NCBI RefSeq assembly: GCF_019059575.1 | Contig: NW_024881971.1 | Coordinates: 310,001-374,000 of the forward strand | Length of the DNA stretch: 64,000 nucleotides | Direction of reading: 5' to 3' | Source of the DNA: Amphibalanus amphitrite | Lineage: Eukaryota > Arthropoda > Thecostraca > Balanomorpha > Balanidae | Shown: in pieces, positions 900 to 24,073 of the stretch | Layout: every line of letters starts with the position of its first letter | Position numbering within the stretch: position 1 is the stretch's first letter | The notes under the pieces: model-generated | Seen by the model: only the letters and a program-made list of their open reading frames with translations | Told to the model about the DNA's origin: nothing | Database searches by the model: none | Made by a program: the position numbers and the translations under genes

Positions 900-1178
900 T
901 GAATAGATCGGCGCAGGTACCACCTCTGGTGTGTGGCCCCGCGCCGGCCCGGCTCGTCTCTGTGTTGGCCGTGACGCCGGCAGCCGGAGGTGGCCGCCGG
1001 CCGGCTCCAGTCGGCGCCGCGCGCCTGTCGCTGCCGGCGGCCGGCGGCTCTTATCGGGGCCGCCGCCGGCGGTCGGTATATCAGCAGCGGCGCCGGCCGG
1101 CACCGGCCAGTCCGCTTGTGACAGTGCCAGAGTGACTGTGTGATTTGCTACTTGCTAGTGACTTCTTACGGCAACAAG
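900..1178 (+). promoter_or_regulatory. GC/CpG-rich putative promoter and 5' leader
   Basis: A very GC- and CpG-rich tract with many GCCGGC motifs lies directly upstream of the sensor start codon, in contrast with the AT-richer sequence before 900. An in-frame TGA stop at 1119-1121 shows that coding does not extend further upstream in this frame. No convincing TATA box or initiator was identified, so the start of transcription is unknown. Confidence 0.4.
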
Positions 1179-3294
1179 ATGTCTAACATCCTTGACGCTA
1201 TCTCTGCCCTCAGGCTGGAGCAGGGGAGGAGGCTGGTGGGGACTCTGAGCCCCGCGGTGCAGCAGCTGGTGGAGAGGTGCGGGTCGGCGGCCCATCTGGT
1301 CGCCGACACGCTGCTGGTGGCCACCGACCTGGTGGACAACCACGGCCCGGGACGACAGGCCGCCATCACCAGCCAGGAGGTCGGTGACGCCGTCGGTGAT
1401 CTGTTGCGCCGCCCTCTGCTGTCGGCGCTGGCGGAGGTCGGGGCCGCCGCCGCCGCCGCCCGGTGTCGTCACTGCCAGCCCCGCCAGCCGCTCCGGCTGG
1501 TCACCTCTAACAGGTCGGGGAGCTCGGCTGAGGGGCTGTCTGACGGTATCATCGGTAAGGGGGGCACGTCGGATTTCGACATTATGTTGGAGTTTGACGG
1601 CCCCTTCCGCTGGGCGCCGCCGGGCGCGGAGAAGCCGGCCGACATCGAGCCGCGCTCTGCGCCGCAGCTGTGGGCCCGGCCGACCGACAACGCCGGCTTC
1701 GTGACGCTGCACTGGGTGCGGACGGACCGGTGCGGCCACGAGGAGCCGCTGGAGGCGCTGCCGGCCAACTCCGTCCGCAAACTAATATATGACTTCTGCC
1801 GGGTCACTCAGACAGGTGAGATCACCCCCACCGGCCCGGCAGTCAATGTCAAGTCTGATGACAAAGACGGCGGCATAGACTTCGTCTTCTGCCTGCTGGT
1901 GCGCGGCTGGTGGCCCGCGCCAGTCTGGCCCGACGGCGCCTCCTGGGAGACCAACTTCCCGTCGGCAGCGGCGCGGGACGATATCCCCCGGTACGGGGTC
2001 CACCTGGTGCCCACCGGCCGGCCGGGCAGTAAGACGGAGTCTATTGAGTACCGCATCTCGCTGTCTCGGGCGGAGCTGCCGGCCGTCCGTCAGCTCTGCC
2101 CGGGGCTGCGGGCTGCGGTTACAGCCCTAAAGGCCATTAAAAACATGCTGAAGGAGAGCGGGGTAGCCATCGGCGACTTATTAAAGTCGTACTTCATCAA
2201 GACGGCTGCGCTCTGGGTGGCCCAGGAGCCGCACGGTGGACCGCGGACGGGCGTCACGGACGGCGTCCACCGGCTCCTGGACTGGCTGGAGCGGCACCTC
2301 GATGACGGAGTGCTGCCCTGCTTCTTCTACCCGGCCATTAACGTGGCGGCGGAGCTGACCGCGGACCAGCGGCAGGCCATCATCGGCTCCCTCCGGCTGG
2401 TGAGGGAGCGCCTGACACCCATTCTGATGGCCTGCTGTGAGGAGCAGTGGTCCCTGGACATCCTGCTGGAGGGGCGGCCGACGGAGCCGCTCTTAGAGCG
2501 CCAGCTGCGGCTCCGTCTGGGACGGACGCTCCTCCGGCAGGCTGTGTATAATGGTATCAGGCTCCGCCCCACGGCTCCCTGCTGGGAGAGCTGGTGGAGT
2601 CACGCCATCCCCCGCCTGGCCGGCGCGGCCCCCCGCCTGCTCCAGTGGCTCCACCACAGGTGGTCGGGGACACACTTCCAGCAGTGTTACCTGCTCATGG
2701 CCTGGAGCGTGGTGGACCCGGCGGACCTGGCGGACGGCGAGCCGATGACGTCACCGGTCGGTGACGTCACCGTCACGCTCGACGTGACGCCGCTCACCCG
2801 GCTCCTCACCGAGTCTGACCTGGAGTTCCTGCTGGGTGAGCCGGCCGCGGTGTCCGCCTGGTGTCGCCGGGAGCGGCCGGCCGGCCTGACCGCCGAGCCG
2901 GACACGCCGCGGGGCCGGGCCGAGCTGCTGCTGCGGCCCGAGCTGCTGCTGCGGGCCCTCGGTGAGGCCGTGCCGCGGTGGATGGACTGGTGGCGAGAGG
3001 TGGACCGGGAGGTGAAGGAGGCCTTTGAGGGGAACTTCCAACCACCGGCCACCTACCAGCAGTGCCGGGAGGTGTTGGAGGAGGACCTCAGCTGTGACCT
3101 GCAGTACAACCTCCGTGACGATCTACCAGAGATGGACGGCCCGACGGTGGTCGCCACGGCCGGCCTCTGGCGCCGGCGGACGCAGCAGCTGCTGACCGGT
3201 GACCGGCTGCGCGCGGCCTACGACGCGGCCGTCGGCCGGTGGCCGGACCGGTGGCAGCTGCTGCAGCATTACCTGGCGGAGGACGACACAAAAG
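1179..3294 (+). CDS. cGAS-like receptor (Mab-21 nucleotidyltransferase), exon 1
   Basis: This exon encodes residues 1-705 of a probable cGAS-like receptor, an enzyme class that makes cyclic dinucleotides or related messengers on sensing nucleic acid. Visible are a Gly-Ser activation motif (SGSS at 113-116), the acidic pair D132/D134 in SDFDIM, and a third acidic residue D234 in GIDFVF followed by WWPAP. These match the cGAS/Mab-21 catalytic layout (E/DxD, then D). The Mab-21 C-terminal lobe is seen as EYRISLS (290-296) and LKSYFIKTAALW (335-346). No Cys/His zinc thumb of vertebrate cGAS type sits between these lobe motifs. ATG 1179 is the first Met after an in-frame stop at 1119 and has A at -3. 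The exon ends at ACAAAAG|GTAAGT, phase 1. About 275 residues beyond the core are unassigned. Ligand and product cannot be read from sequence; a catalytically dead homologue is possible but the triad argues against it. Confidence 0.82.
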
Positions 3295-3359
3295 GTAAGT
3301 CCGCCGCCGGCGCCGCCGCGCGGGTTTCGCTTCGGCAACCGAGTTACTGACTGAATAAA
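3295..3359 (+). promoter_or_regulatory. intron-retention stop and AATAAA polyadenylation signal
   Basis: If the donor at 3295 is not used, reading continues for 18 codons past the donor to TGA at 3348-3350, and AATAAA follows at 3354-3359. This would give a short nucleotidyltransferase without the downstream coiled coil. The donor (GTAAGT) is consensus, so both spliced and retained forms are plausible. The alternative is that this is a one-exon gene and the later exons belong elsewhere. Confidence 0.5.
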
Positions 3360-3880
3360 TGCTAATTAGAAACACAGGCAAAAGCAAATGGATGAACCTC
3401 GCCACGAACCCGCGACCTTTGGCTTGGGATGCAACTGCGCTAGCTATTACGCCACGCAGCCGCTTTGCGAAACCTGACTTATTAGTGAGTTATAATAAAA
3501 AGTGGATTATACTCCGGATGGCTCCTCCCCCTTCCGCTGACACACAGACACACACACACAAGTGGGCGGTGCACTCCGTCACCCGGTGGCCACAACACTG
3601 GACCGGATTGGTCATCACTGTACAGCGGCAATACGAGAGACCACCGACTGTTCAATGGCCGTGGTCCGATACTGAATCAGAATGTGACCCGTGGCATTGA
3701 TCAATTCTACATATATAAGTAAATTATATGATATAATGTTATGATCTTTATTTACTTATGATCGGACTCCAAGCTAGGAAGTGATTTCTGAAACAACTGC
3801 AAATGGGGCATTTTGCCCCAACCCCAGGGCAAAACGCCCCACGGCCTGGGGCAAGAAGCCCCATACTCTAAATTAAAGAT
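3360..3880. other. intron 1, unique-looking stretch
   Basis: No gene is seen. A short CA-rich run lies near 3540-3560. Hairpin-forming blocks of GGGGC/GCCCC around TTTT occur at about 3803-3863 and resemble the ones at 5210-5257. Confidence 0.4.
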
Positions 3881-4917
3881 TTAACCCTCGCCGGCCGAGG
3901 GGGGGGGCGGGTGCCGCCCCCCCCCATAGGGTTTTTTCGCGATAGCTCCGAACACGCTGGCGATAGAGAGCTGAAACTTGGCATACCTGACCTTTGATCC
4001 AAGCCGCATCTTTTGACACCAACCGCATTTTTGGGTCAGGTCAGGTCACTGACCTATGACGTCATAAGTGAACCTCTGCACGGTCTTCAGATGTCGCAAC
4101 TTCGCAACGCCCTCACTGCCAGAGGAGATGTCACAGGGAAATGAAACTTGCAGGATCTAGTATCCATTATGAGTTCCACAACTTGTATATCTCGGATTTT
4201 TCCTAAAGGTCATATGAGGTCAGGTCATTTTCGTGACCTCACCATTATAAGTCAATGGGGAAAAAATTCAAACTGCTATTCTGGCGCCGGGAACGATCTC
4301 CAACTATCTCAAGCACACAGAATCGTGATTTGATGCACTCCTTGCAAGGTTAGATGCCTCACTTTTGCAATGTTGACCTTGCGTGACGTCATTTATGACG
4401 TCATCAAGGTCAAATTAGTTTTTCGTCAATAACTCTTGATCAAATTGAGCTAGCGAGTCGCGGAAGGCACCAATGGACTCAGGAAGGCCTGCCGAATCGA
4501 ATGATATGCGACATGACCTCTTTCGACCAACTTCGTGACCTGGGGGTGCTGACCTGACCTTGACCTGAGGTCAACACCCCAAGTTGACCTGACCCGGACA
4601 AAAAGTATATCATTCGACGCGCCTGAGCGAGGCGAACACGATGCTGCCAAAATCGGCGCTCTGCGGCCGTTTTTTGCGAAGTTATTCACCAAAAACTGAA
4701 CCGTACCTTGGGGCACTTGACCTGACCTCAGAGGTCACCGGTTGACCTAGGACCTTAAAATCGGGTACCAATCTCTGCGTCTCGTAACGGCGCACACGCT
4801 CGTTTTTTCCGCGACGCGCTAGCTCTACCAGGGGCGAAACGGCGAGGGGGGGTCGTACCCGCCCCCCCCCCTCGGCCGGCGCGTATGTAGAAAACCAATA
4901 GGTCCGGCGAGGGCTAA
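3881..4917 (+). mobile_element. MITE, family A
   Basis: It begins TTAA then CCCTCGCCGGCC and ends GGCCGGCG...CCGGCGAGGG then CTAA, a 4-bp duplication with one change. Inside the left end is the hairpin GGGCGG-GTG-CCGCCC. The body has dense AGGTCA motifs. No transposase is present, so it is non-autonomous. Confidence 0.7.
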
Positions 4918-5199
4918 CATGGTAGTTGAATAAATCTTATATGAGAGGTTCGTTAGACCTCTGGAGGCACGGCACTGAAGTTAGCACCTTCTATCCTATC
5001 AGGTGTTCAGTTATGACGCTATTGTATGAGCAGGTTTTTCACCTGCCTCATAAGGCCAAATAATAAATAATTGCAATGCAAATGTTAACCAAATACTTTC
5101 TTTGCCATCCAGTTGCTGAGAAAAATGCATATAAATGCATAAGAACTTACCGTTCGCCAGCTACCGAACATTAAGAAGTGGGTAGTCCGAACAACACGT

Positions 5200-6440
5200 G
5201 AGGTAAAACGCCCCATGGGGCGTTTTGCCCCGCGACCTTCTGGGGCGTTTTACCCCATTACGTAGTTCGGTCAGAGAACAACGCCTTGCGCTCCAGCAAG
5301 ACATAATTTAACACGAACCAACCCGGCATTATAAGCGTTAGACAAAAATTGTTCAAAATACATAAAAGTCGTTAACCTGATGTGGACCACAAAAGAACGC
5401 CATGATGCATAATCAGACAACAAAACATAAAAATCACTAAAAACACATTTTTGGCTATATATTCCTAAAGAGTTATCACAATTTCTTTCCAGTCTGCTCA
5501 GATAATGATCATATAGTGCACGTTTTATTGAAGAGAGGATGTTTCCCCAGAACCTTGCCAGTTCCGAGAAACATCGGTGAGGCGTTTTACCTCGGCGGGG
5601 CGACTTGCCCCGGTCTACCCTACCTAGGTAGGTAGCCAGGATATTTGCAATAAAACCAGTAAAACGCCTTTTGGGCGGAGAACGAGCGAGCGAGATAGTG
5701 AGCCCTGCACGTGCAGAAGGGCGAGAGGGTACTTCCAACGGGCTTGTGCAAAGCACCCTTCTAACCGGTCGCTAGCGGTGTACCAAATTTGAACGCAATC
5801 GGCCCAGCCGTTCCTGAGATCTGGAAGCGGCATTCTGCACGTGCACACGTGCAAACGGGGTCCAAAATGACTTTTGCACGGCACCCTACTAACCGGTCCC
5901 CAACCGTGTACCAAATTTGAGCGCAATCGGCCCAGCCGTTCTCGAGATCTGGAAACGCCCCCTGCACGTGCGCACGTGCAGTAGCACCCTAACCGCAGCA
6001 CATGGGAATGCATTGCCTGGTGGGTGCCTACCTGTATGCCAAGTTTCAGCGAAATCGCCCCAGTAATTACCGAGTTACTGAAATGGGAACAAATTTGGCA
6101 CCTCTTATTGTTGTATTTTGCACGTGCAGTGGGGGTCACTCACATAGATGAAGAGTATCCGACCTTTGGTAGAAGGGATGCAGCTACCCTATAAAAATGA
6201 CCGCAAGACAATCGCTCAAGCCGCTGCTGAGATATGGGCCTCTCAAAATCATTACTTTTGCAAAACTGCTTGAACACCCTTGACTTTTCACGTGGCACGT
6301 GCCACGGCGGTCATTGAGATGTATCAAAAGTAGTCAATTACGGGGTAGAAGGGATGGGGCTACCCAGCAAAAAAGACCGCAGGCCATTCGGTCCAGCGGT
6401 TGCTGAGATATAAGCCTCTCAAAAGCGTTACAGGCCGGGC
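5200..6440. repeat. degenerate repeats with CACGTG palindromes and GGGGC hairpins
   Basis: Around 5210-5257 and 5580-5615 are inverted GGGGCG/CGCCCC blocks. From 5700 to 6300 the motif CACGTGCA or a close variant recurs. The segment near 5763-5850 is repeated near 5890-5965, and the segment from 6122 is repeated from about 6296. No coding potential was recognised. Confidence 0.5.
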
Positions 6441-6486
6441 CGGGCCGGGCCGGGCCGGGCCGGGCCGGGCCGGGCCGGGCCGGGCC
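6432..6486. repeat. (GGCCG)n microsatellite
   Basis: About eleven uninterrupted copies of the 5-mer GGCCG. Confidence 0.9.
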
Positions 6487-7246
6487 GCTCATACTGAGAT
6501 TTTTCCGTTATATTGAAAAGACTTCGCTTCGCTCGCTGCGCTCGCTCGCTCGTAATAAAATGGTTCAACGTAACTAGATTAAGCAGATGGAAAGTACATT
6601 CATTGTGCTAAATACAATTATAACGTATGAATAGATTCAGACTTGATCCAGAGATACCCATCTGCTGCCGTCGGTGCAGGAATATGCCGTGAGATGACAG
6701 GGCCGACATCACAATAGGAACCGATTGAAATGTCCACATCCGTCTCAGAAACACCAGAGTCGAGCTGCGAACAGAAACAACAAAAACATGTCAGAGTGAC
6801 CGAAACGTGCAGCTGAGTGAGCAATTATTGTCATTTCTGGGATGGACAAATAGGCACACAAAACAAGGAGGTCATCGTTACTCGAGGGCAGCGCTTTTCG
6901 AGGAGCGCTGTGGCCCGAAGGTTTGGACTTTGAATTGTGAAAAACGCCCGCCCGTCGTTAGCTCATGTTGAGGTCATCGTTATGGACAACTCAGAGTCTT
7001 GCATATCTCAAAGTGGTTTGACAAAAAATGACTATGGGACAACTTTGCACAGAAGGGCGATAGACCCCCCCTCCCCCTAGGATCTTGAAAACGATGGGAT
7101 ACATTCGGTTGATGTCTGCAATTTTTACACCGGGGTTTTTCAAGTCAGTGCAAAGATGACGTTGCAGGGGTGAAACTAATCAAAGTTGTGGCGTGTGAGG
7201 CCAAGAAAGTACAGGGTGTCCCAAAAGTAAGGTTATGATTTAAAAC
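6487..7246. other. intron 1, no feature recognised
   Basis: Apart from a GCTCGCT-rich run at about 6526-6552, nothing recognisable is seen. Confidence 0.4.
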
Positions 7247-7617
7247 TTAAACCTCGCCCTGGCAGGGGGGGGGGTCGATGCGACCCCCCCCCCCCCCTAA
7301 GGTTTTTCGAAGATAGCGTAAAAACGGCAGCGCGCTGCGCCGCCAAATTTGGCACAGCCTATGGGGCAACCTTTTTACATATGACCTAAAAAATTTCAGG
7401 TCCAGGTGACCTTGGGTCAGGTCACCAGGTCAGAAAAACCGGTACAGGGTCATGGTCAAATTTCAATTTTCTTTTTGCACCTGTTCTCACAGTTTTGGAC
7501 TGATTTCCTTCAAACTTTCAGGATGTGCTAAGTTCACCGAGTTGTATAACATATGGTTCGGGTTTTTTGAGGTCACTGACCTGAGGTCAGTTAGAGGTCA
7601 TTACGTCGTAATGTTAA
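7247..7617 (+). mobile_element. MITE, family N left end, truncated
   Basis: It begins TTAA, ACCTCGCCCTGGCAG, then the hairpin GGGGTCG-ATG-CGACCCC. It is cut where the family C element starts at 7614. The same left end occurs at 58072. Confidence 0.55.
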
Positions 7618-8602
7618 CCCGCGCACCGACGGGGGGGGGTGGATATCCGCCCCGCCCTGAGGTTTTCGCGAATAGCGGAAAAACCGCGGCGCGTAGCGCC
7701 GCGAAATTTAGTACGACTATTTTCTCATCAATTTTACACATGGTGTGCAAGTTTGAACCTCCTAACTTTCAAGGTCAGGTCACCAGGTCACTTTGAATGA
7801 CCCAACCTCAAGTCACTTTTTTGCAACTTTGTCACCGTGCCAGAGCTACAGTAGATGTCGGAGGCCTATGAAAGTCGCAGGATGTTATTACCTCGTTAGT
7901 AGCTACAATTTGTATATCTCGGAATTTTGATATCAGTGACCTAAGGTCAGGTCAATTTCGCGACCTCCCCATTATAAGTCAATGGGGGAAAAATCAACTC
8001 CCTGTTTTTACCACTAAAACGGGTCGGAATGGCCCCTTATACCATACATGACTTCATATACGATCAACCTTCACTACCTTGAGGTCTGTTTTGCTGTTGG
8101 GCAGCTGTAAGGTCATGTTACGTCATCAAAGGTCACCAAAGGTTTTTTGCCAATAACTCCGTACAGGAACAAGATACAGCCGCGCGGATGGTCTCATTGT
8201 GTTCAGCTCATCAAGACGCATCGAATGATATACATGATGACTTCGAGGTCACGTGACCTGAGGTCACCCTTTGACCTTGACCTTTCGAGGTCAACATATA
8301 TATCACCCGATGCGGATTGACGAGAGGATCACGATGCTGCCCTTAGTTTGTTCCTATCTTGACTAATTCGAAAGTTATTCGAGAAAAACTATCCATATCT
8401 AGCGCCGCCATTTTGACTTTCGACCCCTGTGACGTCATCTTTGACCTGACCTGAAAATGACCTTCATAAAAATTGTAGACCATGTCCGTGCGTATCCGAT
8501 GCCATTTACCGCTTGTCGCTATCTTGCTTCGTTCTCGAGATCTCAGGGAGGGGGGGGCGGTCATCCGCCCCCCCGTCGGTGCGAAGTCGGTGCGCGGGTT
8601 AA
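7614..8602 (+). mobile_element. MITE, family C
   Basis: It is flanked by TTAA on both sides, with termini CCCGCGCACCGACGGG and their inverted copy. Subterminal hairpins are GGTGGAT-ATCCGCC on the left and GGGCGG-TCAT-CCGCCC on the right. The body carries many GGTCA motifs. The inner right half is shared with family K. Confidence 0.75.
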
Positions 8603-9352
8603 TTAACCCTCGCCAGCCGAGGGGGGGGCGGGTGCCCCCCCGTAGTTTTTTTTCGCGATAGCTCCGAACACGCTGGCGATAGAGAGCTGAAACTTGGCAT
8701 ACCTGACCTTAGATCCAAGCCGGATCTTTTGACACCAACCGCGTTTTTGGGTCAGGTCAGGTCACGGGCCTATGACGTCATAAGTGGACCTCTGCACGGT
8801 CTTCAGATGTCGCAACTTCACAACGCCCTCACTGCCAGAGGAGATGTCACAGGGAAATGAAACTTGCAGGATCTAGTATCCATTATGAGTCCCACAACTT
8901 GTATAGGTATCTCGGATTTTTCCTAAAGGTCATATGAGGTCAGGTCATTTTCGTGACCTCACCATTATAAGTCAATTAGGAAAAATGTAAACTTATAAAA
9001 TATATTTTAAAACTTATATATATAAATAAAACTTATAAAAAAATACTTATATCATTCGACGCGCCTTGACGTGCTGAGGTCACTGGTGCTTTTCTTTTTT
9101 TTTCTATCCTAATTAGATCAAAAGTTATAAGCGAAAAAACTTTTGACCTGTTTTTAGCGAAATTTTTACATTTATACCCCCTAAAAATTGACCTAGAGCA
9201 ACGAAATTTGCACAGGGGCGAGAAATCCAGGGGGCCAGCCTACCTACCAAATTTGGTGTTTCTAGGTGCCATAGGAGCCAATCGCGAGGGGGGTCGCATC
9301 AACCATCTTGCTAGGCCGTGTTATGAAAAATGTACTGCCAGGGCGGGGTTAA
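8603..9352 (+). mobile_element. chimeric MITE, family A left half with family N right end
   Basis: The left end at TTAA 8603 repeats family A closely for about 380 bp. The right end (TGCCAGGGCGGGG then TTAA) is instead the inverse of the family N terminus, as seen at 58072. An AT-rich junction lies near 8990-9050. This looks like recombination or nested insertion. Confidence 0.5.
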
Positions 9353-10578
9353 CCCGCGCCCTGGGGGGTCTGTTTATAACACGACCTGGTGGGGGACTAT
9401 TTTCCCCCCCCCCTCATATCTCCGAAACTACTGGACGGATCCGCGAAATTCAAACGGCGTTCGAAAGGGCTGTCAAATTTGTCGAAGGAAACCAAATGTC
9501 ATTGACCTTAGTGTCACCGATGACGTCACAGGTCAGGTCAAAGATGAAATGTTTCACCGTTCACGGGTCATCTAGGGAATGCGCTATAACACCGAAGAAA
9601 ACGCATTTTGTCGAGAATCAGCGATAGGGCGTCAGTTGCCTAGTACATATGTTGCTATAACAGTTCACTGACATTACCAGGTCAGGTCACAGGTCAGGTC
9701 ACCAAGGGTCACAGGTCAGGTCACCATGGGTCACAGGTCAGGTCACATATGAACCCAACTTTAGGTACTAAGGTTGTGCGATGCATGTTTTATGGCCAAT
9801 TTTTCATTTCCAACTCAATGGTGTTGGTTATAAGACTATCAGGTAGGCTTAGGTCACTTTCTGGTGAAGGTCAGGTCAAGGTCAGGTCAAAGAAAGTCAA
9901 ATTTTAAAGTTGATAGTTTTGCTTAAAAGGGGTATTAATTCGATGCAGCTCGTCACGGGGAGTCTAATGGTGGTCTTTGTTTTGCGCTACGGGGTCTAGA
10001 ATTGCTAAAAATTGAGTTTGAAAATTTGACGTCATCAATTTTGAACCGTTTTTTCGCTATAACTTCGCCAAAAAAGAGATATCAATCTCAAATTTGGTAT
10101 GTGGATAGAAGGAGGTAAGGACTATCACATATAGGTATTCTGTTTTTGCGAATTTCAAAAAACTTTTTGGATTTTTTTGCTATTATATTCAAAAAAACTA
10201 TTTTTTGATTTTTGGGGGTCAAAATCCAACAATTTAAAAAAAAAAACCCGAGATAGTAGTTTTGTAGCCCTGTCAATTCTACAGCTTTTACGTCTTTATC
10301 GTTTTTCTCTATTTGCAAAGCTATAGGCCTGACAGCTCTTCCCGCGAAACCCTTTTTTGGGTCGAAAACGGCAGAACATGACGTCACTCTGACGTCATTT
10401 CCGGCCAACGTATCATAGCCTTTGGAAAAATTTTTGGTCACAATGTGTAAAATTGATGTCCGGGAGGGTACTGAAAGTTTGTTGACGATCGGCGCAGCGG
10501 TTCTGGAGATATATCAAAAAGTCTGGAGGGGGGGGGGGGGGGGCAAAAAATTCCCCCCCCCACCAGGGCGCGGGTTAA
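9349..10578 (+). mobile_element. MITE, family E
   Basis: TTAA stands at both ends, with CCCGCGCCCTGG and its inverse as termini. It shares TTAA with the preceding element. It contains AGGTCAGGTCA clusters at 9680-9750 and a body related to the copies at 16219 and 29320. Confidence 0.7.
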
Positions 10579-11993: not shown

Positions 11994-12157
11994 TTAACCC
12001 GCCCCCTGTATGGCCGTCAACCGACCCTGCCACCCGTGACTCCCCCCCCCCTCCCAAAGATCTCGGAAAGTTACCGACCGATTTTCGAATTTCAAACGAC
12101 ATTCGATAGCCCCAGCGGAGAACTACCTCGTGACCAAATTTCATTGACCTAGTTTAA
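11994..12157 (+). mobile_element. MITE, family E-like left fragment
   Basis: It starts at TTAA with CCCGCCCCCTG and matches the first part of the 16219 copy (about 100 bp, ending near TTCATTGACCTAG). It is cut by the family F element at 12154. Confidence 0.5.
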
Positions 12158-13956
12158 CCCTCGCCGGCACGGGGGGGTGATGCAACCCCCCCTAAGTTTT
12201 TTTTTGCGAATAACTCGCGTAAAAAGCGGCCGATCGCGACGAAACTGTCAGTACCCTCGCATTGATCAATTTTACACTATCCCTGAAAATTTCATGACCC
12301 TGACCCCAATGACCTTTGACCTGTGACCTCTTTTCTGAGACCATGTTTGGCCGGAATCGCGATTCAGCGTATGTCGGCTCACATTAGCCGCGCGTTTGCA
12401 AGCTTTTTGTGGTTTCAAACGTTCAAACATGTAATTTGATGTCGCTCCCATACATTAGGGTGGGTGTCAAGGTCACCTGAAGGTCAGGTCAGGTCATTGA
12501 CCTTTGGTGACCTCGGGTGACCTCGGTTCACTTTTTCGAGTTTTACATGTTTCTAGGCTAGTTTTTGGAGCTGAATTCGAATTTGGCAACCATTTGAACA
12601 TTTACGAAGTAGTTTTGTTGCCTTCGTAACATGTTACGAAGCTGTCAGAGACGGTTGACACGTATTACGAATACCCATCACAACCCCTACCGGTTGACCT
12701 GACCTGACCTGACCCGACCTGGTCTAAATGCTTAAAGACATCATCTCTGATCAAAACTAAAACGATATTCGTGATCAGCACCCCGGAAAACCACATAGCA
12801 GCCACAATTTACGACTTTCTAACAGGTCCCGATTTTCCCAGTTTTCGGGTCATTAACCTGACCTGGGAGGTCACCCGATGACCTAGGACCTTAACCCGCG
12901 AGTTGCTGGGGGGGGGGCGTTAAACGCCCCCACTTTTTTCGCCGGGCCATAGCATAAATTTTGGGTACCTGTAGGGAATTGATTGAAGTTTATTGTGACA
13001 AAGTTTCAAAAAAATCGGTCGTAAAATTTTTGAGATATCGAGGTTTTAGTGACGTCATGATTTCTGAGTTTTCGACCAAAAACGGCATATGTTCAAAAAA
13101 TCATATAAAATCACAGAATAGACATACAGACATGCCGTAAATGTCATTAGACTGCCAATACCTTGAACAAGCAAATGGCTATCTTCGATTATTGATTATC
13201 GTTCCGAATTTTCCAAAATCTTGAACTGAACCTTGGCAATTTCTCGTGACTACCTCACGACCAGCATACATGCATTTCTTAAATTGAACTTTTTTAGCCA
13301 AACACGTACACATATGATAAAATGAATGTCACCATCGTGTTCTACGCCCCAAATTACCTATAAAACATGTGTCACAGGCTGCGAATATCAGTTTTGATTT
13401 TCGGGGATATGTGCCTACCCGGTTGACCTGTCCTTGACCCTGACCTATGCATGACTGACCCCTACATGGAGCTGACACTCTTGTAGGCCTTATATAATGG
13501 ATTGTGCACCGTTTTGACAGAGTTTATGACGAGAGGCGCCCATTGCGAACTCCTGAAGTCCATGCTACTGAAAGCCCGATTTCAGGTGTTTGACCTGACC
13601 TTGACCCGACCTGTGACCTCAAAATTGAACTTTAAAGTACTCATCTGAAGCGTCTCGTCGCGTTCTTTCGTTTGCCGCCTCGTGCGTTTCGCTGCGCCTA
13701 TTGGTTCTCGAGTTATCGGCTGGGGGCGTTTAACGCCCCCCCCCCCCCAGCAAACGGTGGGTGGCGAAATACCCCAGCAACTGCCGGGTTAAAATTGGGT
13801 ATCATTGGCTTCGTCTCGTGACGGGCAACACGCTCATTTTTTCCGCGAAGCTCTAGCTCGATCAGGGGCCAAACGCGAGGGGGGGGGGGTCGTAGCACAC
13901 CCCCCCCCCCCTGTGCCGTCGAAGGACGCAAAATGGCCTGTGCCGGCGAGGGTTAA
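12154..13956 (+). mobile_element. MITE, family F, interrupted by family G
   Basis: The element starts TTAA-CCCTCGCCGGCACGG and ends GTGCCGGCGAGGG-TTAA. It is split by a family G insertion at 12891-13792. Uninterrupted copies at 35510 and 38515 show the intact junction (GACCTTAAAATTGGG), confirming insertion at TTAA. Confidence 0.8.
12891..13792 (+). mobile_element. MITE, family G, nested in family F
   Basis: TTAA flanks both sides. The subterminal hairpins are the cleanest in the window: GGGGGCGTT-AACGCCCCC occurs near both ends. Confidence 0.8.
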
Positions 13957-15057
13957 CCCTCGCCCGTATTGGTGTTTTCGCAGCCGCGAACGTAAAAGGG
14001 GGCTGGGGGGAGCTCCGTTGGACCCAACCCTTGCCGTTTCGCCCCTGATCAAGCTAGAGCGTCGCGGAAAAACGAGCGTGTTGCATGTGACGACTGACGA
14101 GAGAAAGCCGATCATACCCAACTTTAAGGTCCTAGGTCATTGTTTGACATTCCAGGTCAGGTCAATGACCCAAAAGTCGCGAAAATCGGGACCTGTTAGA
14201 ACGTCGTTAAGTGTGGCTTCTATGAGTTATTCGGGGTGCTGATCACGAATATCATGTTAGTTTTTGATCAAAGATAATGTCTTCATGCATTTAGGCCTGG
14301 TCGGGTCAGGTCAGGTCAGGTCAGGTCAGGTCAGGTCAGGTCAATCAGTAGGGGTTCTGCCGGGTATTCGTTGTAGGAGTCAACCGCCTCTGACAGCTTC
14401 GTAACATGTAACGAAGGCACCAAAACTACTTCGTAAATCTTCATATGGTTGCTAAATTCAAATTCAACTCTAAAAACTGGCCTTGAGGCATGTAAAATTT
14501 GAAGAGTAAACCGAGGTCATCTAAGGTCAATGAAACGATGTACCTAAAGATGTCAGGGTCAGGTTCAAGGTCAACCTAGGTCATCTAAAACATTGCGTTT
14601 TAGGCAAGCTGAATTTACTTTTCGTTAAGTTTTTTTGACTGCATTTTTGGTAAAAGCTTCTCAATTCATGATCTCATGTAACAGGGACACACAAACCAAT
14701 CGGTGCACACACCACTATACACAGACACAAACACAGACATACAAACACATATCATTGACCCTGACCTAAGCTGACCTAAGACCCCAGTCAGTAAAAACTT
14801 AGTCGGATAGTGTAACAAAGAGCTGTTCTAGCTGGCTTGGCACCAATACTGCAGCGTCATTGGTATATGATGGGCACTGCACGTGATATTCCAACGGTGA
14901 CCCCATACAGCAACATTTTTTAGTTTGACCTGACCTGGAAGGTCAATGACTGCACATTGAGGTAAAATTGGATACCATTGGATTTGTCTCTTCCAAAAGA
15001 ATCTGTTGGTTTTTACAGCGAAGCTCTATCTCTAGCAGGAACGAAATGGCGCGGGGG
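13953..15057. mobile_element. chimeric MITE, F interior reversed then I interior
   Basis: It begins at TTAA 13953 with CCCTCGCCCGTATTGG. Roughly 14110-14520 is the inverse of the family F interior. Then about 14540-15057 follows family I in the forward direction, stopping just before its right hairpin. The right end is lost. Confidence 0.55.
14300..14342. repeat. (AGGTC)n tandem run
   Basis: Eight consecutive copies of a 5-bp unit give overlapping AGGTCA half-site-like motifs. It is an expanded form of the motif scattered through all the MITEs. Confidence 0.85.
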
Positions 15058-15461
15058 TCCGACTGCCGTCTTGTGTTCTTATCAAACATCATGGGCTAGA
15101 TGGCGATAGTAATGACGCTGATACTGAACAGTTTTAGTCATGTACAGTACCGCGAGTCAGTGTCTTATTTGTTACATTATCACCGCGAGGCACGATGCAG
15201 TGTTCATTATTGGAATACATCGTAAAAATAAAAAAATCATTTTTTGAACAAATCGCAACAAATCGTAAAAATAAATGCATAAAAAAATGTTGAGCGAAGT
15301 AACTAGATTTTGTAACTCTCTTGCCCATGCTGATAAATGGCATGCCATAACACATGGTCTTTTACCTTGTACTGTGAATAGTGATCCAGTTTTCTTTCGA
15401 TTTGGTCGCCTATCGACCTTCCTCCCAGCGTGTGACTTCTGTCTTACATGCTGTGTTCTAG
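15058..15461. other. end of intron 1
   Basis: No feature is seen until the pyrimidine-rich tract and the CTAG acceptor ending at 15461. An open frame from 15275 reads through the acceptor but its first 62 codons look like intron. Confidence 0.5.
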
Positions 15462-16151
15462 ACTCGCCGCAGGGTGACCGCGACGGAGAGATCGAAGACG
15501 AGGAGCAGCACTGCGATGAGGAGGAGCAGCCATCAGAGGGTCCGCCTCACCCACACCGGCAGAAGTGGCGGCAGATTGAACAGCAACATCAGCAGCGGTG
15601 GAAGGAGCTGGAACTACAACATCAGCAGCTATGGCAGGAGCTGGAGGATCCAGGTCATGAAGAAAGAGTGAGGATGGGCAAAGAGCATGAAGAGGAGCGT
15701 CGACATCTGGAGCAGAAACACGGTACGGAGTGGCAGAACCTGGCCGAACGTCACTATGAGGAGCGTATTGAGCTTCATCAGAAGCACAAAGAGGACACTG
15801 GATGCCTGAACATGCCGAATGAGGACCAGTTAAGGCAGCTGGATTGCTCCCACCAACAGCAGTGGGAAAATCTCCAGCACACACTACAGCAGCAGTGGCA
15901 AGAGCTGGAGCAGAGACACCAGAGAGAGTCACGAGAGCTGGAGAAGAGGAACCCGAATACAGGCTCTGAAGAGAAGAAGATTCGGCTGCTGGAGGAGTGC
16001 AGTAGCAGACGACATCAGCTGGAGAAGGAGCTGCAGAAGGAAATGCAGGAGGAACTGGATAAGGAGCGAATGCAGCATCTAAACAAAGTGCTGGATGAGG
16101 TGGAAAATGAGTTGAAGGAGCTGCTACAGAAGCAACAGTGCCTTGAAAGAG
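15462..16151 (+). CDS. cGAS-like receptor, exon 2: hendecad coiled coil
   Basis: The exon is 690 nt, bounded by CTGTGTTCTAG| and GAAAGAG|GTGAGT, and is phase 1 at both ends, so it joins exon 1 in frame (split codon G|AC). It adds residues 706-935. An acidic start (DGEIEDEEQ) is followed by about 190 residues rich in E, Q, H, R and W. They fall into 11-residue repeats with His at the first position and Trp near the sixth, for example QHQQRWKELEL then QHQQLWQELED. The C-terminal third becomes a conventional Glu/Lys coiled coil (ELQKEMQEEL). A role in oligomerising the sensor or in binding a partner is inference. The nearest alternative is that it belongs to another, unseen gene. Confidence 0.6.
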
Positions 16152-16542
16152 GTGAGTGACAGGCAAAGATGTCAGATTTGTTTTTCTCAGCAGTGCTTCA
16201 GACGGGAAACAGTTGTCCTTAACACGCGTCCAGTATGGCTATCGGCGGACCCTACCACACGTAGGGGGGGGGGGGCGTTTCGGCCCCCCTAAGATTTCGG
16301 AAATTTACCGGCTGATTTTCAAAATTCAAACGGCGTTCGATAGTCCCACCGGGGAACTACCTAGTGACCAAATTTCATTGACCTAGGTCAAAGTTCAAAC
16401 CGATGACGTCACAGGTCAGGTCAAAGGTCGGATTTGCACCGTTCACAGGCATTTCAAGAAATGTGTTGTGAAATCGAGTAAATTGGTAAATTATTGAAAA
16501 CCATCGATGCTACATTGTTCGCCAAAAACAAACTTTGCTATC

Positions 16543-16769
16543 TGTTATGTAATGGGCCGTGTGCACACCTGTGCAGACCCCTGCCTGGGCATTGGCGGTG
16601 GCCGATATGTGAGTTGCCTGCTACTGTGTGTGTGATACCTGGGTCGGTCCCTGCCCAGGTCAGGGACTGCCTGAGGGGACGACCCTCCTGTCGTCCCCAC
16701 CACCGTGCTACAATACAGTCAGTCGGAACCGAGCGGTGGTGTGTCGATGGTGGGCCGCGAGACATAACA
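16543..16769 (+). repeat. 5' LTR
   Basis: 227 bp, TG...CA ends with 8-bp terminal inverted repeats. It matches 20988-21214 without visible differences. Confidence 0.95.
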
Positions 16770-16783
16770 TTGGCGACGAGCGG
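16770..16783 (+). promoter_or_regulatory. putative tRNA primer binding site
   Basis: TTGGCGACGAGCGG lies immediately 3' of the 5' LTR. The leading TGG is complementary to a tRNA CCA end. Which tRNA is used was not determined. Confidence 0.6.
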
Positions 16784-16798
16784 AGTGAGGACGGAGCC

Positions 16799-19700
16799 AT
16801 GCCGTTGGGGAAGATTGAAGAATTTCACCAAGGACAAGATAACTGGGAAGAGTATGCGGAAAGGTTGGATCAATTCTTCGTGGCTAATGACATCCAGGAC
16901 GATGCTAAGAAGAGGGCCATTCTCCTCAGCAGTATGGGAGCTCGGACATACGGTACGGTAAGATCGCTGTTGTCACCGAAAAAACCAAATGAGGTGACGT
17001 ATGTCATGATTGTTGAAACATTGAGCAAGCAATTTTGTCCGCCCACATCGGTAACTGTCGCAAGATATCGGTTCTTTTCCTGTTGTCGAGTACAGTCAGA
17101 GTCTGTTCAGGAGTTTGTGGCGCGCCTGCGACAGCTGTCACGGGACTGCAAATTCGAATCGTTTCTTGATCAAATGATCAGAGACCGGCTGGTGTGTGGA
17201 GTTAACTCTGACCCCATTCAGCGCAGGTTGCTGGCAGAAGCTGAGCTGACTTTGCCGCAGGCAATCAAGATTGCTGTGGCAACGGAAACAGCAGGTCAAA
17301 ACCTACAGGAGCTGGCGGGAGCTGGCCAGCCGGTGGTGTCCGCTACGGGGGAGACGGCAGTGAACCGTGTCCGGACGGGCCCGTCAGCCTCACAGCGGAC
17401 CAGCCAGGAGCGACACAACGCCAGTAAGCAAGCGCGGCATGAAGGTGAGAGATGCTGGCGCTGTTTGAACAGAACGCACTCTGAATCCGAATGCTACTTT
17501 AAACGTAAGCGCTGCTTCCAGTGTTCCAAGTACGGGCATACATCGGCCGCTCACCGGGCAGGGACGGTGAAACATGTTGGGTCGGAGGTGGTCCGTCAGG
17601 AGGAGGGCGATGGTGCAGGATCTGGGGAAGAGCAGAGGGTGATGGAGGCAGACACTGAAGAATGTGACTTTATCGGGGAGGTTTTTCAGTGTCGGGAGCG
17701 GATTCATGTGGTGAAGAGCCGGCCTCCGATCATGCTGGACATGTCGCTGGATGGGCGTGATGTCAGGATGGAGCTTGACACGGGTGCATCTGTATCCGTC
17801 TGTTCGTTCAGCAGGTTTCAAGAGCTCTGGCCGGAGAAGAAACGCCGTCTGCAGCCGTGCAGCCTCATCCTACACACCTTCTCAGGCGAGCCTCTGAAGG
17901 TCCGAGGTGAGGTACAGATGGACGTGGTGTACCGCGGAGAGTCGTTTAGCCTGCCCCTGGTAGTAGTTGATGGGACAGGGCCGCTGCTCTTCGGCAGGAA
18001 CTGGTTGGAGAGCATCAGACTGGACTGGAGAACCATCTGCATGGTGACGACGCAGACGCTGGGAAGCGGAGTTGAGTCTGTGCTGCATAAGCACTCTGAT
18101 GTGTTTGCGGATGAGTTGGGATGTGCGAAGGGGATTGTGGTAGATATCCCGATTGACCCAGACACACGTCCCATCTTCTACAAGCCCAGGCCGGTACCGC
18201 TGGCGTACCGTGCTGCTGTCGACGCCGAGCTGGACCGTCAGATCCAGGCCGGGCTGCTGGAACCGGTGAAACACTGCACGTGGGCTGCACCGATCGTCAC
18301 TGCACTGAAGGCGTCAGGTGAGGTCCGTCTCTGTGGTGATTATCGGTTAACGGTCAACAAAGTAACGCCGCTAGAGAGGTACCCGATGCCCAAGACTGAG
18401 GAGCTATTCACGCTGTTTCAGGGTGCCAGAATTTTCACGAAACTAGATCTGAAAAGCGCATATAATCAGATTCAGCTAGATAAAAACAGCAGGAAGTACA
18501 TGGCTATCAATACGCACAAGGGAATATTGGTACCGACTAGGCTGGGTTTTGGATATGCCTCAGCCCCGGCGATTTTCCAGAGATACATGGAATCGCTGCT
18601 CGCTGGAATCCCAGGAGTTGGTGTGCTGATCGATGACGTCATTGTCTCAGCAGGATCCGAACAGGAACATCTGCAGCGGCTGGAGGAGGTTCTGAGACGT
18701 CTGTCGGAGGCAGGACTGCGACTGCAGCGGAAGAAGTGTCAGTTCGCGGCATCAGAAGTGGTGTATCTGGGACACCACATCACGGCAGATGGTATCAAAC
18801 CAACAGCAGACAAGGTCAGTGCCATTGAAAAAGCCCCAGAGCCCAAAAACTTGAAAGAGCTTCAGGCATGGCTCGGCCTGGTCAACTATTACGCGAAGTT
18901 CCTGAAAAACCTCGCCACAGAACTGGCACCGCTGTATCAGCTGCTGAAAAAGGAGCAGAAGTGGGAATGGGGCCCAGCTCAGAGGAAGGCGTTTCAGAGT
19001 ACGAAAGGTATGCTGAAATCAACCCTGACTTTAGCGCACTTTGACGAGACAGCTCCAGTCATTTTGGCTTGTGATGCCAGCCCGGTGGGGGTAGGATGTG
19101 TCCTAAGTATCATGGACAGGAACCATGTTGAGAGGCCAGTTGCGTTCTACTCGCGGTCTCTGTCGGAGACTGAGAGACGGTATTCCCAGACCGATCGCGA
19201 GGGCCTGGCAGTGATTGCTGGCCTGGCCAGGTTCAATTTTTACTTGGCAGGTCGTGAATTCTTGATCCGGACAGATCATAAGCCGCTGCTGGGTATGCTT
19301 GGAGGAAATAAGCCGGTATCACTGATGGCCTCTCCCCGGGTGACACGATGGGCTATGCTGCTCTCGGGGTACAAGTATAAGATGGAATATGTGCCGGGTA
19401 TCAAGCAGGGACACTGTGATGGATTGAGCCGACTTCCTGTGTCTGCAGGATCGCCCCAGCTGCCCGTTCCAGCTGAGACGGTGCACCTGATGCAGTTCTT
19501 CGACTCGTCACCGGTCACCGCTGAGTCCATCCGTCTGTTCACCGCCAGGGATCCTGTGCTGAGTGCCGTTCTGCGCTTCACCAGAGAGGGCTGGCCATCG
19601 GGCGACCTCGTGATGCCAGAGCTGGTACAGTACCGAAGCAAGGAAGGTGAGCTGAGCATTCAGGATGGATGTTTGCTGTGGGGGTCACGGGTGGTGGTAC

Positions 19701-20977
19701 CCCCCAAGATTCGGCCTAGAATTCTGTCTATGCTGCATGAGGGACATCTGGGAGAGAGTCACACGAAAAGTTTCGCTCGTATGTATGTCTGGTGGCCTGG
19801 GATAGACAGGGAAGTCTCTGAACTGGTGCGTCACTGCCCGACATGTCAGCAGTATCGCCGACAGGCACCCGTGACGCCACTCAGTCCGTGGGCTTGGCCG
19901 AAAAATCCCTGGGACCGAGTGCATATTGATCACTGCCAGTTCGATGGCCACTTGCTCTTGATTGTTGTCGATGCGTACTCAAAATGGATTGACGTGCACT
20001 TGGCCCGTTCAACGACAGCCGAGAATACCATGGAGCTGCTGCGCAAGTCATTTGCATATTTTGGAATCCCGCGGACCCTGGTCAGTGATAACGCAACATG
20101 TTTCACAGCGCCAGCGTTCGAGACGTTCTGCAAGCAGCTGGGCATGCGCCACTTGCTGACCGCACCCCTGTCGGCCAAAAGTAACGGTCTAGCGGAGCGT
20201 TGTGTGCAGACGGTGAAGCAGGGCCTGAGAAAGCAGAAACATGGCAGCATGGACACGAAAATCTGCCGGTTTCTGTTTGCCTACCGTACCTCTCCTCACA
20301 GCACAACGGCGCAGACTCCAGCAGAGCTGATGATGGGCCGACGTTTGCGGACTCGTATGGATTGTTTACTGCCTGACCTACAGGACCGTGTGTCAGCCGC
20401 ACAGCAGCAGATGAAGGAGAGATATGACCGTCGGTCACAGGATCGTGTTCTAACCCCTGGAATGCGTGTCTGGGTGTCACAGGTCTCCGGACTGGCCGGC
20501 GTCGGACGGGGAACACGCTGGCTCCCGGGACACTGCGTGAGCCGCTCTGGATCCAAGATCACTGTTCGTCTGGAGGACGGCCGCGTGATACAGCGCCACC
20601 TAGACTTCGTGGTGCCCAGCGGTTCTAGCCGTCAGATGGAGCTGACCGATGAGCCGACGCCGTCCATGCCGCCGGGTTGGATGCAGCCGCCTCCGCCTGG
20701 GACACCGCTTTCCGAGGAGGGAAGAGGACGACTCGCCGCACCAGCGGAGAGGGATCCCGCGGCCGGGGGGCCGCCGGGGACCAGGGCCGCATCCGCGGCG
20801 CCGCTGCCGTCGCCGCCGCCGTCTGCGGATCCAGGGACCACTCAGCCCGGGGACGCCGAGACGCCGCCGCCGTCCCCGCCGCGGCCGCCGTCTGCGGCTC
20901 AGTGTACCACTCAGCCGCAGCCTGATGATCCGCCGCGTCGCTATAACTTGAGGCCGAGGCCGATACTAAGAAAATAG
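16799..20977 (+). CDS. gypsy Gag-Pol polyprotein
   Basis: One frame of about 1392 residues from ATG 16799; the same frame is open back into the LTR, but this is the first Met after the primer site. Gag ends in two zinc knuckles (from 17453): CX2CX4HX4C, then CX2CX4HX4H. The protease has LDTGAS (17777). Reverse transcriptase shows LKSAYNQ and IDDV at the active site (18632), a variant of the usual Y-x-DD. RNase H has LACDAS. Integrase has an HHCC finger and D (19928), D (20087), E (20195), a DD35E spacing. The C-terminal tail is Pro-rich. No frameshift separates gag from pol and no env is present. It looks coding-competent. Confidence 0.93.
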   Translation: MPLGKIEEFHQGQDNWEEYAERLDQFFVANDIQDDAKKRAILLSSMGARTYGTVRSLLSPKKPNEVTYVMIVETLSKQFCPPTSVTVARYRFFSCCRVQSESVQEFVARLRQLSRDCKFESFLDQMIRDRLVCGVNSDPIQRRLLAEAELTLPQAIKIAVATETAGQNLQELAGAGQPVVSATGETAVNRVRTGPSASQRTSQERHNASKQARHEGERCWRCLNRTHSESECYFKRKRCFQCSKYGHTSAAHRAGTVKHVGSEVVRQEEGDGAGSGEEQRVMEADTEECDFIGEVFQCRERIHVVKSRPPIMLDMSLDGRDVRMELDTGASVSVCSFSRFQELWPEKKRRLQPCSLILHTFSGEPLKVRGEVQMDVVYRGESFSLPLVVVDGTGPLLFGRNWLESIRLDWRTICMVTTQTLGSGVESVLHKHSDVFADELGCAKGIVVDIPIDPDTRPIFYKPRPVPLAYRAAVDAELDRQIQAGLLEPVKHCTWAAPIVTALKASGEVRLCGDYRLTVNKVTPLERYPMPKTEELFTLFQGARIFTKLDLKSAYNQIQLDKNSRKYMAINTHKGILVPTRLGFGYASAPAIFQRYMESLLAGIPGVGVLIDDVIVSAGSEQEHLQRLEEVLRRLSEAGLRLQRKKCQFAASEVVYLGHHITADGIKPTADKVSAIEKAPEPKNLKELQAWLGLVNYYAKFLKNLATELAPLYQLLKKEQKWEWGPAQRKAFQSTKGMLKSTLTLAHFDETAPVILACDASPVGVGCVLSIMDRNHVERPVAFYSRSLSETERRYSQTDREGLAVIAGLARFNFYLAGREFLIRTDHKPLLGMLGGNKPVSLMASPRVTRWAMLLSGYKYKMEYVPGIKQGHCDGLSRLPVSAGSPQLPVPAETVHLMQFFDSSPVTAESIRLFTARDPVLSAVLRFTREGWPSGDLVMPELVQYRSKEGELSIQDGCLLWGSRVVVPPKIRPRILSMLHEGHLGESHTKSFARMYVWWPGIDREVSELVRHCPTCQQYRRQAPVTPLSPWAWPKNPWDRVHIDHCQFDGHLLLIVVDAYSKWIDVHLARSTTAENTMELLRKSFAYFGIPRTLVSDNATCFTAPAFETFCKQLGMRHLLTAPLSAKSNGLAERCVQTVKQGLRKQKHGSMDTKICRFLFAYRTSPHSTTAQTPAELMMGRRLRTRMDCLLPDLQDRVSAAQQQMKERYDRRSQDRVLTPGMRVWVSQVSGLAGVGRGTRWLPGHCVSRSGSKITVRLEDGRVIQRHLDFVVPSGSSRQMELTDEPTPSMPPGWMQPPPPGTPLSEEGRGRLAAPAERDPAAGGPPGTRAASAAPLPSPPPSADPGTTQPGDAETPPPSPPRPPSAAQCTTQPQPDDPPRRYNLRPRPILRK

Positions 20978-20987
20978 GGTGGAGAGG

Positions 20988-21214
20988 TGTTATGTAATGG
21001 GCCGTGTGCACACCTGTGCAGACCCCTGCCTGGGCATTGGCGGTGGCCGATATGTGAGTTGCCTGCTACTGTGTGTGTGATACCTGGGTCGGTCCCTGCC
21101 CAGGTCAGGGACTGCCTGAGGGGACGACCCTCCTGTCGTCCCCACCACCGTGCTACAATACAGTCAGTCGGAACCGAGCGGTGGTGTGTCGATGGTGGGC
21201 CGCGAGACATAACA
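20988..21214 (+). repeat. 3' LTR
   Basis: 227 bp, preceded by the purine tract AGGGTGGAGAGG. It is followed by the CTATC target duplication. Confidence 0.95.
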
Positions 21215-22156
21215 CTATCTGAGGTCACTGATACCAGGTCAGGTCACAAAAGTCAGGTCACTGGGGGTCACAATATGAAAGTGTCGTGTGATACATGTTT
21301 TATGGTCCATTTTACATGAAAAATGCGATCATGTGGGTCAGGCAGCCTTTAGGGCAAGCTTAGGTCACGTTTTGGTGAAGGTCAGGTCAAGGTCAGGTCA
21401 AATCAGGTCAAATTTCAAAGTTGATATTTTTGCATAACATGGGAACCTATCGATTCGATGCAGCTCGTCACGGGGAGTCTAATGGTGGTCTTTTGTTTGC
21501 CATACGTGGTCTAGAATTGACAAAAAAAAATGATTTTGAAAATTTGACGTCATCATTTTTGAACAATTTTTTTCGCTATAACTTGGCCAAAAAACGAAAT
21601 ATCGATCTGAAATTTGGTATGCAGATGGCAGACGGTAGTTACTATCACATAAATTCCGTTTTTTATTAATCTCGTACAACGTTTTAGATTTTGTGGCTAA
21701 TATATCCAAAAAATGTTTCTTTTATCTTTAGGGGTCAAAACTCAAAAAATTCAAAAATCCGAGATAAAGTTGTGTAGCCCTATCAATTCTACACCTTTTA
21801 TGTAGGGTCATTTTTTTGTATCTTCAAAGCTGTAGGCGTGACAGCTCTTCTTGCGAAGGTCTTTTTCGGTCGAAAATGGCAGAACATGACGTCATTCTGA
21901 CGTCATTTGTGGCCAACCTATCATAGCCTCTGGAAAAAAAATTGGTCACAATGTGTAAAATTGATGCCCGGAGGGGTCCCAAAAGCGTGGTGGTGATATC
22001 TCCAGCCGTTTAGCAGCTATCGACGGAAAGGGACAGGGGGGCGTTTCGCACCCCCCCCCCCTACGGGGCGCGGTGCTCTGAGCATGAAATGACTCTGTCC
22101 TTATCTCTGACTGACCCGGCCTGGGCCTAACCTCTGCCTGACCCGTCACATTGCAG

Positions 22157-22356
22157 ACCAGGAACCGAGGGCCGTCGGAGGCGAGGCCAGTGGCGATCAG
22201 CGGCGCGGCTCCGACCTCCGTCCCACCCCCCGGACGGAGGCGTGTCCACCCCGTCCGGCCGGCAAGCGGCGGCACCAGGAGCCGCCGCCGGCGGACGCCG
22301 GCCAGCCGCCGGACGCCAAGCGGGCCCGTCCGGACGTGTCGGACGGCCGGCAGTGA
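22157..22356 (+). CDS. cGAS-like receptor, exon 3: basic C-terminal tail
   Basis: After acceptor CACATTGCAG| the exon accepts phase 1 (G|AC, Asp936) and reads 65 further codons to TGA at 22354-22356, giving a 1001-residue protein. The tail is Pro/Arg-rich with basic clusters GKRRHQ and DAKRARPD, which resemble nuclear localisation signals. Codon third positions are very GC-rich, as in exon 1. A competing reading exists: in phase 0 the exon has no stop and runs to a donor at 22415 (GACACTGAC|GTGAGT). It is therefore uncertain which frame, and which transcript, the exon serves. Confidence 0.48.
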
Positions 22357-22390
22357 CGGGGCCGAGGCGGCGAGCCGATGTGTCGGCCAG

Positions 22391-23398: not shown

Positions 23399-23465
23399 GT
23401 GGCGGGTAGAGCGATACTGAATGGCCGGTCCGGACCTGGCTGTTTACTCGGTCGGACCAACAGTT

Positions 23466-24030: not shown

Positions 24031-24073
24031 CTGTCAATATCAGGGGACCTAAAACTGGACACTGGTGTTTCAG

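Follow-up and report, generated by a model that had tools for sequence, protein, structure and literature searches.

Does a barnacle gene join a cGAS-type nucleotidyltransferase to a C-terminal coiled coil, and, if so, what kind of protein would result? The question comes from a first-pass annotation of 64,000 nucleotides of the Amphibalanus amphitrite genome (contig NW_024881971.1, positions 310,001 to 374,000 of the forward strand; hereafter the window, numbered from its first letter), which proposed that a Mab-21 nucleotidyltransferase exon is spliced to two further exons adding a coiled coil and a nuclear-signal-like tail. Splice sites and related gene models confirmed this three-exon architecture, and, to judge by sequence, the gene belongs to a barnacle family of nucleotidyltransferases with a predicted cGAS fold. 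Its product may be a cGAS-like enzyme that actively makes a second messenger, is assembled through its coiled coil and carries a diversified recognition surface. We consider this reading evenly balanced between right and wrong; in it the fold is modeled, and we infer catalysis, ligand sensing and pre-assembly. The predicted exons are as follows.

1179 to 3294, forward strand: exon 1, open reading frame from the ATG at 1179, with the cGAS/Mab-21 nucleotidyltransferase and an extra helical region (residues 1-705)
15462 to 16151, forward strand: exon 2, acidic linker and coiled coil, matched by tblastn with the related model P0004 (80% over 230 residues) and by its junction residues
22157 to 22356, forward strand: exon 3, basic tail with KRR...KRAR and the stop, matched by P0004 residues 951-1010 (95% identity), the single supporting model

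Exon 1 ends, as proposed, in a phase-1 donor (AAAG/GTAAGT at 3294/3295), and the next two exons have usable splice sites in the same phase at exactly the positions given in the first-pass annotation. Splicing all three yields a protein of 1001 residues, in which the first join reads ...DDTK-D-SPQGDRDGE. Between 3200 and 22400, GTRAGT strings occur at 3295, 3485 and 16152, with two more inside the long terminal repeats (LTRs) of a retroelement. The 294-residue open frame that holds exon 2, including 62 residues upstream of the exon, was not reached in any of 500 two-base-block shuffles. An alternative exon-2 acceptor at 15472 was rejected, as it brings in a stop at the second codon.

The same exon order recurs in related A. 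amphitrite genes. A protein search with exon 1, which scored only the 7997 candidates sharing most words with the query, returned no near-identical match among them; 68 matches were listed, 34 of them A. amphitrite models and 34 from ENA contigs, with a best identity of 89%. Because the A. amphitrite models carry two kinds of name (FJT64 and LOC122), a locus may in some cases be counted twice. The 48 aligned relatives of exon 1 are 39-89% identical to it, and the closest family members, at 84-89%, look recently duplicated. P0004 (1013 residues, annotated as 'Reticulocyte-binding protein 2 a') aligns by tblastn across all three exons, at 1179-3302, 15461-16135 and 22165-22344. We then selected 17 A. 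amphitrite models extending into the coiled coil (alignment A2), 16 of which have letters at the first join. Exon 2 starts with Asp-Ser in 15 of these 16 and with Asn-Ser in the other; the join is direct in 14, with extra sequence between exons 1 and 2 in P0007 and P0032. The second join was found in one model, P0004, whose residues 951-1010 match 22165-22344; its tail ends in ...PDAKRARPDVSDGQQ, as against ...PDAKRARPDVSDGRQ in the window protein. Because the second join and the tail occur in P0004 only, and because the 2.6 kb 3' of exon 3 (22357-25000) hold no AATAAA or ATTAAA, exon 3 is the weaker part of the architecture. The proposed fusion is supported as to fold, catalytic acids, coiled coil and exon order, and it is a family trait of many paralogues, some models of which lack the coiled coil. 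Pattern scans confirmed no relative in the viral and prokaryote collections, and there were no matches in NCBIfam, in Rfam at gathering scores or with ARAGORN.

Two further features bear on where the transcript might start and stop.

1077 to 1111, forward strand: candidate core promoter by consensus match, with a TATA at 1077 and an initiator-like CCAGT at 1107, about 70 bases 5' of the ATG
3348 to 3359, forward strand: in-frame stop of the unspliced frame (3348-3350), then AATAAA at 3354, which would allow a short form ending before the coiled coil

Since the exon-1 frame stays open from the ATG to the stop at 3348-3350, the gene could mainly or additionally make a short protein that ends within the intron at 3350 and is polyadenylated after 3354, the long form being minor or regulated. 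The AATAAA at 3354 fits such a product, as do four models (P0003, P0006, P0010 and P0029) that stay in the same frame past the first donor; two others, P0005 and P0009, continue elsewhere. Against it, the donor is near-perfect, 14 models have exons 1 and 2 directly joined, and the core of the coiled coil is conserved (see below). We regard this reading as distinctly improbable. The ENA proteins stop near exon 1 in the way that unspliced gene calls would.

Exon 1 has the sequence and predicted structure of a cGAS-type enzyme.

1293 to 2441, forward strand: cGAS-fold part, residues 39-421
1518 to 1580, forward strand: G114-S115 loop and putative catalytic D132 and D134, both kept in all 61 rows that have letters there (the other 8 of 69 are gapped)
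1878 to 1880, forward strand: putative third catalytic acid, D234, kept in all 63 rows that have a letter there (the other 6 of 69 are gapped)
2454 to 3248, forward strand: extra helical region, residues 426-690, with predicted helices and many hypervariable positions

An AlphaFold2 model of the exon-1 protein (predicted local distance difference test, pLDDT, 86.8; predicted template modeling score, pTM, 0.88) takes up the cGAS/Mab-21 fold, as the first-pass annotation had predicted, and its best structural match is cGAS, over residues 39-421. Profile searches matched cGAS-like receptor 1 (8gjy, E 2.5e-14), MB21D2 (E 1.3e-7) and also cGAS, the PDB profile match spanning profile positions 213-419. 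Pfam Mab-21_C falls just under its cut-off in the window protein (4.9e-5; 23.8 against 24.1 bits). At E 0.01, Mab-21_C is found in 46 of the 49 members of alignment A1 and Mab-21 in 21 of 49, which places the family in the Mab-21/cGAS superfamily, in agreement with the predicted fold. The structural homology to cGAS-like receptor (cGLR) and CD-NTase enzymes that PMC9980059, in its accessible part, asks of a cGLR is likewise predicted here. The proposed triad of D132, D134 and D234 is intact in all 60 rows that have letters at the three columns, the window protein included, the other 9 of 69 rows having a gap in at least one of these columns. In a single-sequence search of the PDB, the best match to the extra helical region had E 0.21. 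A retroelement origin of exon 1 was considered and rejected, since Pfam finds only Mab-21 domains there and the exon recurs in dozens of models.

The published active-site motif of cGLRs is h[QT]GS X8-20 [DE]h[DE]h X50-90 h[DE]h (PMC9980059, accessible part). In its strict form, with hydrophobicity enforced at the first position only, it was found in none of 71 proteins. A relaxed form, which also lets S precede GS, leaves the first residue free and extends the spacer to 110, was found in 61 of 71, some of the other 10 being fragments. The family misses the strict form because Ser mostly replaces Gln or Thr before Gly-Ser; the window protein itself reads R-S-G-S with spacers of 16 and 97, that is, with S for Q/T and with a second spacer outside 50-90. 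Given these two results, enzymatic activity is likely, not certain. The label 'cGAS-like receptor' of the first-pass annotation is likely right as to design, and formal membership among cGLRs rests on a motif that the protein departs from in these two details.

Two pairs of conserved residues within the cGAS-fold part, on which the first-pass annotation was silent, suggest a zinc site.

1464 to 1475, forward strand: C96-x2-C99, one half of the candidate zinc site, each position being Cys in 59 of the 60 rows that have a letter there (the other 9 of 69 are gapped)
1731 to 1739, forward strand: C185-x-H187, the other half, each position being kept in all 65 rows that have a letter there (the other 4 of 69 are gapped)

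The zinc thumb of vertebrate cGAS has the motif H-C-C-C and lies in the C-lobe. The near-invariant Cys-x2-Cys and Cys-x-His pairs are presumably not at the place of that thumb, and by eye we saw no H-C-C-C cluster in residues 349-381.

We next consider the part of the protein that would hold several copies together.

15566 to 15961, forward strand: 12 in-register 11-residue repeats, W-x-x-L-E-x-x-H-x-x-x, from lag and pattern analysis

After the acidic linker, exon 2 runs through 12 unbroken 11-residue units, as the first-pass annotation claimed. All 12 units have Leu, Ile or Met at position d, 6 have Trp at position a and 8 have His at position h. In the first 131 coiled-coil residues, identity at lag 11 is 0.30, compared with 0.106 in shuffles (z 7.3, 0 of 2000), lag 7 gives z -0.1, and a spectral period of 3.667 as strong as that observed was reached in 0 of 500 shuffles. 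An 11-residue periodicity without a heptad one, as found here, is that of a hendecad. Over the whole 199-residue coiled coil the signal at lag 11 (z 6.1) and lag 22 (z 3.0) persists, and the spectral test at period 3.667 is not significant (0.24). The remaining 68 residues of exon 2 are charged and predicted to be helical, with the 11-residue register lost.

The core of a hendecad is formed by positions a, d, e and h. In 14 related models (A2 less P0007, P0032 and P0061; 121 columns), these positions vary less than the others (0.80 vs 1.26 bits; 9 of 20000 permutations). The periodicity is also widespread: lag-11 z exceeds 4 in 15 of the 23 proteins scored, those in which 100 or more residues follow the anchor motif. 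The other 8 include P0054 (3.3), P0065 (2.8), P0061 (1.5), P0005 (1.1) and four ENA proteins, in which the anchor fell early. When the P0004 coiled coil was used as the query, in a search limited to proteins between 0.55 and 1.75 times its length, 7 proteins were found, all from A. amphitrite; 6 have the Mab-21 exon, and in the seventh model, P0070, an RNase H region is attached. The coiled-coil blocks of P0004 are predicted, with modest confidence, as long helices, with pLDDT of about 39-76 in a single-chain model of the full-length protein. Such a coiled coil could hold several copies of the protein together.

The tail encoded by exon 3 is mildly basic (isoelectric point, pI, 9.3; net +2 over 66 residues). 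Its KRR...KRAR motif, the proposed nuclear-signal-like element, may direct the protein to the nucleus; tail and motif were found in one other model only, P0004.

A second feature that the first-pass annotation did not include is a set of hypervariable positions in exon 1. We compared three groups of paralogues: clade A, 12 close paralogues (that of the window and 11 others from A. amphitrite) with a mean pairwise difference of 11.8%; clade B, 7 A. amphitrite proteins; and clade C, 15 ENA proteins. The more distant P0011 was dropped from clade A, as were columns with too few letters. Within clade A, 479 of 687 usable positions are invariant, and another 21 are different in 70% of pairs or more. 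These 21 hypervariable positions fall at or within residues 11, 49-73, 110-121, 212-233, 458-500, 550 and 601-647, among them 49, 59, 66, 73, 110, 121, 233, 475, 479, 495, 500, 550, 601, 612, 636 and 647. Positions 226-233 adjoin an indel, and the hot position 233 directly precedes the third catalytic acid, D234. Hot sites often swap unlike residues; position 500, for example, is F, Y, R, S, D, H or W.

The columns that are hot in clade A are also hot elsewhere, with 0.66 of pairs differing in clade B (0.22 at other columns) and 0.73 in clade C (0.27 at other columns), neither reached in 20000 permutations, a sharing that would also be expected of free surface positions. Columns that are variable but not hot in clade A reach only 39% and 42% in clades B and C. 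When hot sites were picked in one random half of the sequences, the other half gave 0.68 vs 0.10. Positions varying in at least half of pairs tend to share a helix face when seven helices are taken together (mean resultant 0.60, permutation p 0.009). As a yardstick we used 13 codons of intron 1 adjoining the splice site, in four paralogues that read into that intron (P0029 was too short and was dropped). Across their six pairs, differences amount to 0.76-0.94 at the hot sites, which had been picked from these same sequences, to 0.09-0.13 in the remainder of exon 1 and to 0-0.08 in the intronic codons. Since the hot sites so far exceed intronic codons in the same pairs, these protein differences, which are not dN/dS values, point to diversifying selection or targeted mutation.

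The same data could instead reflect an ordinary lineage-specific expansion under relaxed constraint, with the hot positions being free surface and many copies decaying. The same columns tend to vary across clades (Spearman 0.38-0.44), as free positions would, and retroelement-type domains occur in P0032 and P0070 (by name or Pfam) and, by eye, in P0005. Relaxed constraint would not readily explain the large excess of differences at hot sites over the 13 intronic codons, the large share of invariant positions in clade A, or a triad without variation and Cys/His pairs with almost none. We think it unlikely.

How might a protein of this design work? Exon 1 would supply a catalytically equipped cGAS-type core with its own candidate zinc site and the extra helical region, and the coiled coil would hold several enzymes together before any ligand arrives. 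Ligand would then bind a surface that differs between paralogues and to which the long N-terminal helix, the loop that follows G-S and the extra helical region contribute; binding would switch the nucleotidyltransferase on, and the product would be a cyclic or linear nucleotide signal. More tentatively, barnacles may have a repertoire of such pre-assembled cGAS-type sensors, with hypervariable positions under diversifying selection and copies that differ in ligand or signal. This would amount to a germline-encoded, receptor-like diversification of a second-messenger synthase, at positions that include the residue before the third acid, and taken as a whole we regard it as possible and rather doubtful.

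Several observations weigh against an active, pre-assembled sensor. The strict cGLR motif is missing throughout the family, and the nucleotidyltransferase part is slightly acidic (pI 6.0, net -5), which disfavors a nucleic-acid ligand. The full-length model of P0004 is weak (pLDDT 64.0, pTM 0.57), and several annotated paralogues lack exon 2, the 17 of the 34 A. amphitrite matches outside alignment A2 being fragments or models without this exon. When helices are taken singly, only 2 of 7 show a face preference (56-93, p 0.013; 599-619, p 0.031), with none in helices 2-21 and 196-210. The intron yardstick is short and lies next to a splice site, and it was compared with sites chosen from the same sequences. 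Among relatives, the crystal structure of MAB21L1 is in an inactive conformation (PMC4897736, accessible part), and shrimp Mab21 proteins are reported to bind neither dsDNA nor dsRNA, to make no cGAMP and to act on IKK-epsilon (PMC12928593, accessible part). The cGAS fold alone is therefore no proof of catalysis.

The shrimp proteins lead to another interpretation, in which the barnacle protein is a non-catalytic Mab-21 scaffold whose fold and coiled coil assemble partners, such as an IKK-epsilon-type kinase, and whose triad only binds nucleotide or metal. The way in which the shrimp proteins act, the slight acidity of the nucleotidyltransferase part and the lack of a zinc thumb visible by eye would all suit a scaffold. 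Yet the shrimp proteins are reported, in the accessible part of the same paper, to be without essential nucleotidyltransferase residues, whereas the barnacle triad is kept in all rows with letters. We consider a scaffold somewhat unlikely.

The window also contains mobile and repetitive DNA outside the protein, the largest piece of which lies in intron 2.

16543 to 21214, forward strand: Ty3/gypsy-type retroelement with identical 227-base LTRs, a 5-base target duplication, and reverse transcriptase, RNase H and integrase domains

This element runs in the direction of the gene, its target duplication is CTATC, and its insertion is probably very recent. Directly 3' of exon 3 are tandem arrays of 92-base units (22391-23399) and 62-base units (23466-24030); each printed 92-base unit holds GGTCAG and CGTGAGT, resembling a small exon between splice sites. 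A CACCAT-type repeat array follows at 24410-24942, and further arrays lie at 31668-32451 (70-base units), 43226-43692 (15) and 55879-56164 (34). Three segments (27311-27373, 30808-31032 and 36593-36724) match the C-terminus of P0007, a paralogue model whose repetitive end is probably such repeats translated in error. At 46573-47289 there is a partial reverse transcriptase (Pfam RVT_1, 5e-6, just under cut-off), probably from a non-LTR element. Among the paralogues, P0005, P0032 and P0070 are joined to retroelement-like pieces, recognized by the name CCHC-type in P0032, by Pfam RNase H in P0070 and by eye in P0005, and are chimeric models or broken copies.

Our search, which covered part of the literature, found no published report of this barnacle family or of such a coiled-coil fusion; the supplementary list of PMC9980059 may include A. 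amphitrite sequences. Human and mouse cGAS are about 16% identical to the barnacle protein, which differs from them in its own Cys/His pairs, its extra helical region, its C-terminal coiled coil and the absence, by eye, of an H-C-C-C zinc thumb. MB21D2 and MAB21L1 share the Mab-21 fold, and neither is known to have a coiled coil. MAB21L1 is monomeric in solution (PMC4897736, accessible part). The shrimp proteins LvMab21-1/2/3 are, like the barnacle family, crustacean Mab-21 proteins, and LvMab21 has an immune role; unlike the barnacle protein they are reported without essential nucleotidyltransferase residues, and the word 'coiled' is absent from the main text as available (PMC12928593). Among invertebrate cGLRs, such as Cv-cGLR1 (8gjw) and cGLR1 (8gjy), 87% are reported to be stand-alone proteins, and the fusions named in the accessible part of PMC9980059 (TPR, ankyrin, death-domain and multi-cGLR) do not include a C-terminal hendecad coiled coil. 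The same source reports that many cGLRs are inactive in vitro, probably for want of ligand, and describes cGLRs as a large family of animal sensors. The barnacle family appears to vary strongly at few positions, as immune receptors do. If the pre-assembled enzyme is real, it would offer a route to ask whether sensors of this kind pre-assemble without ligand and where ligand makes contact, with the hot positions as the residues to swap.

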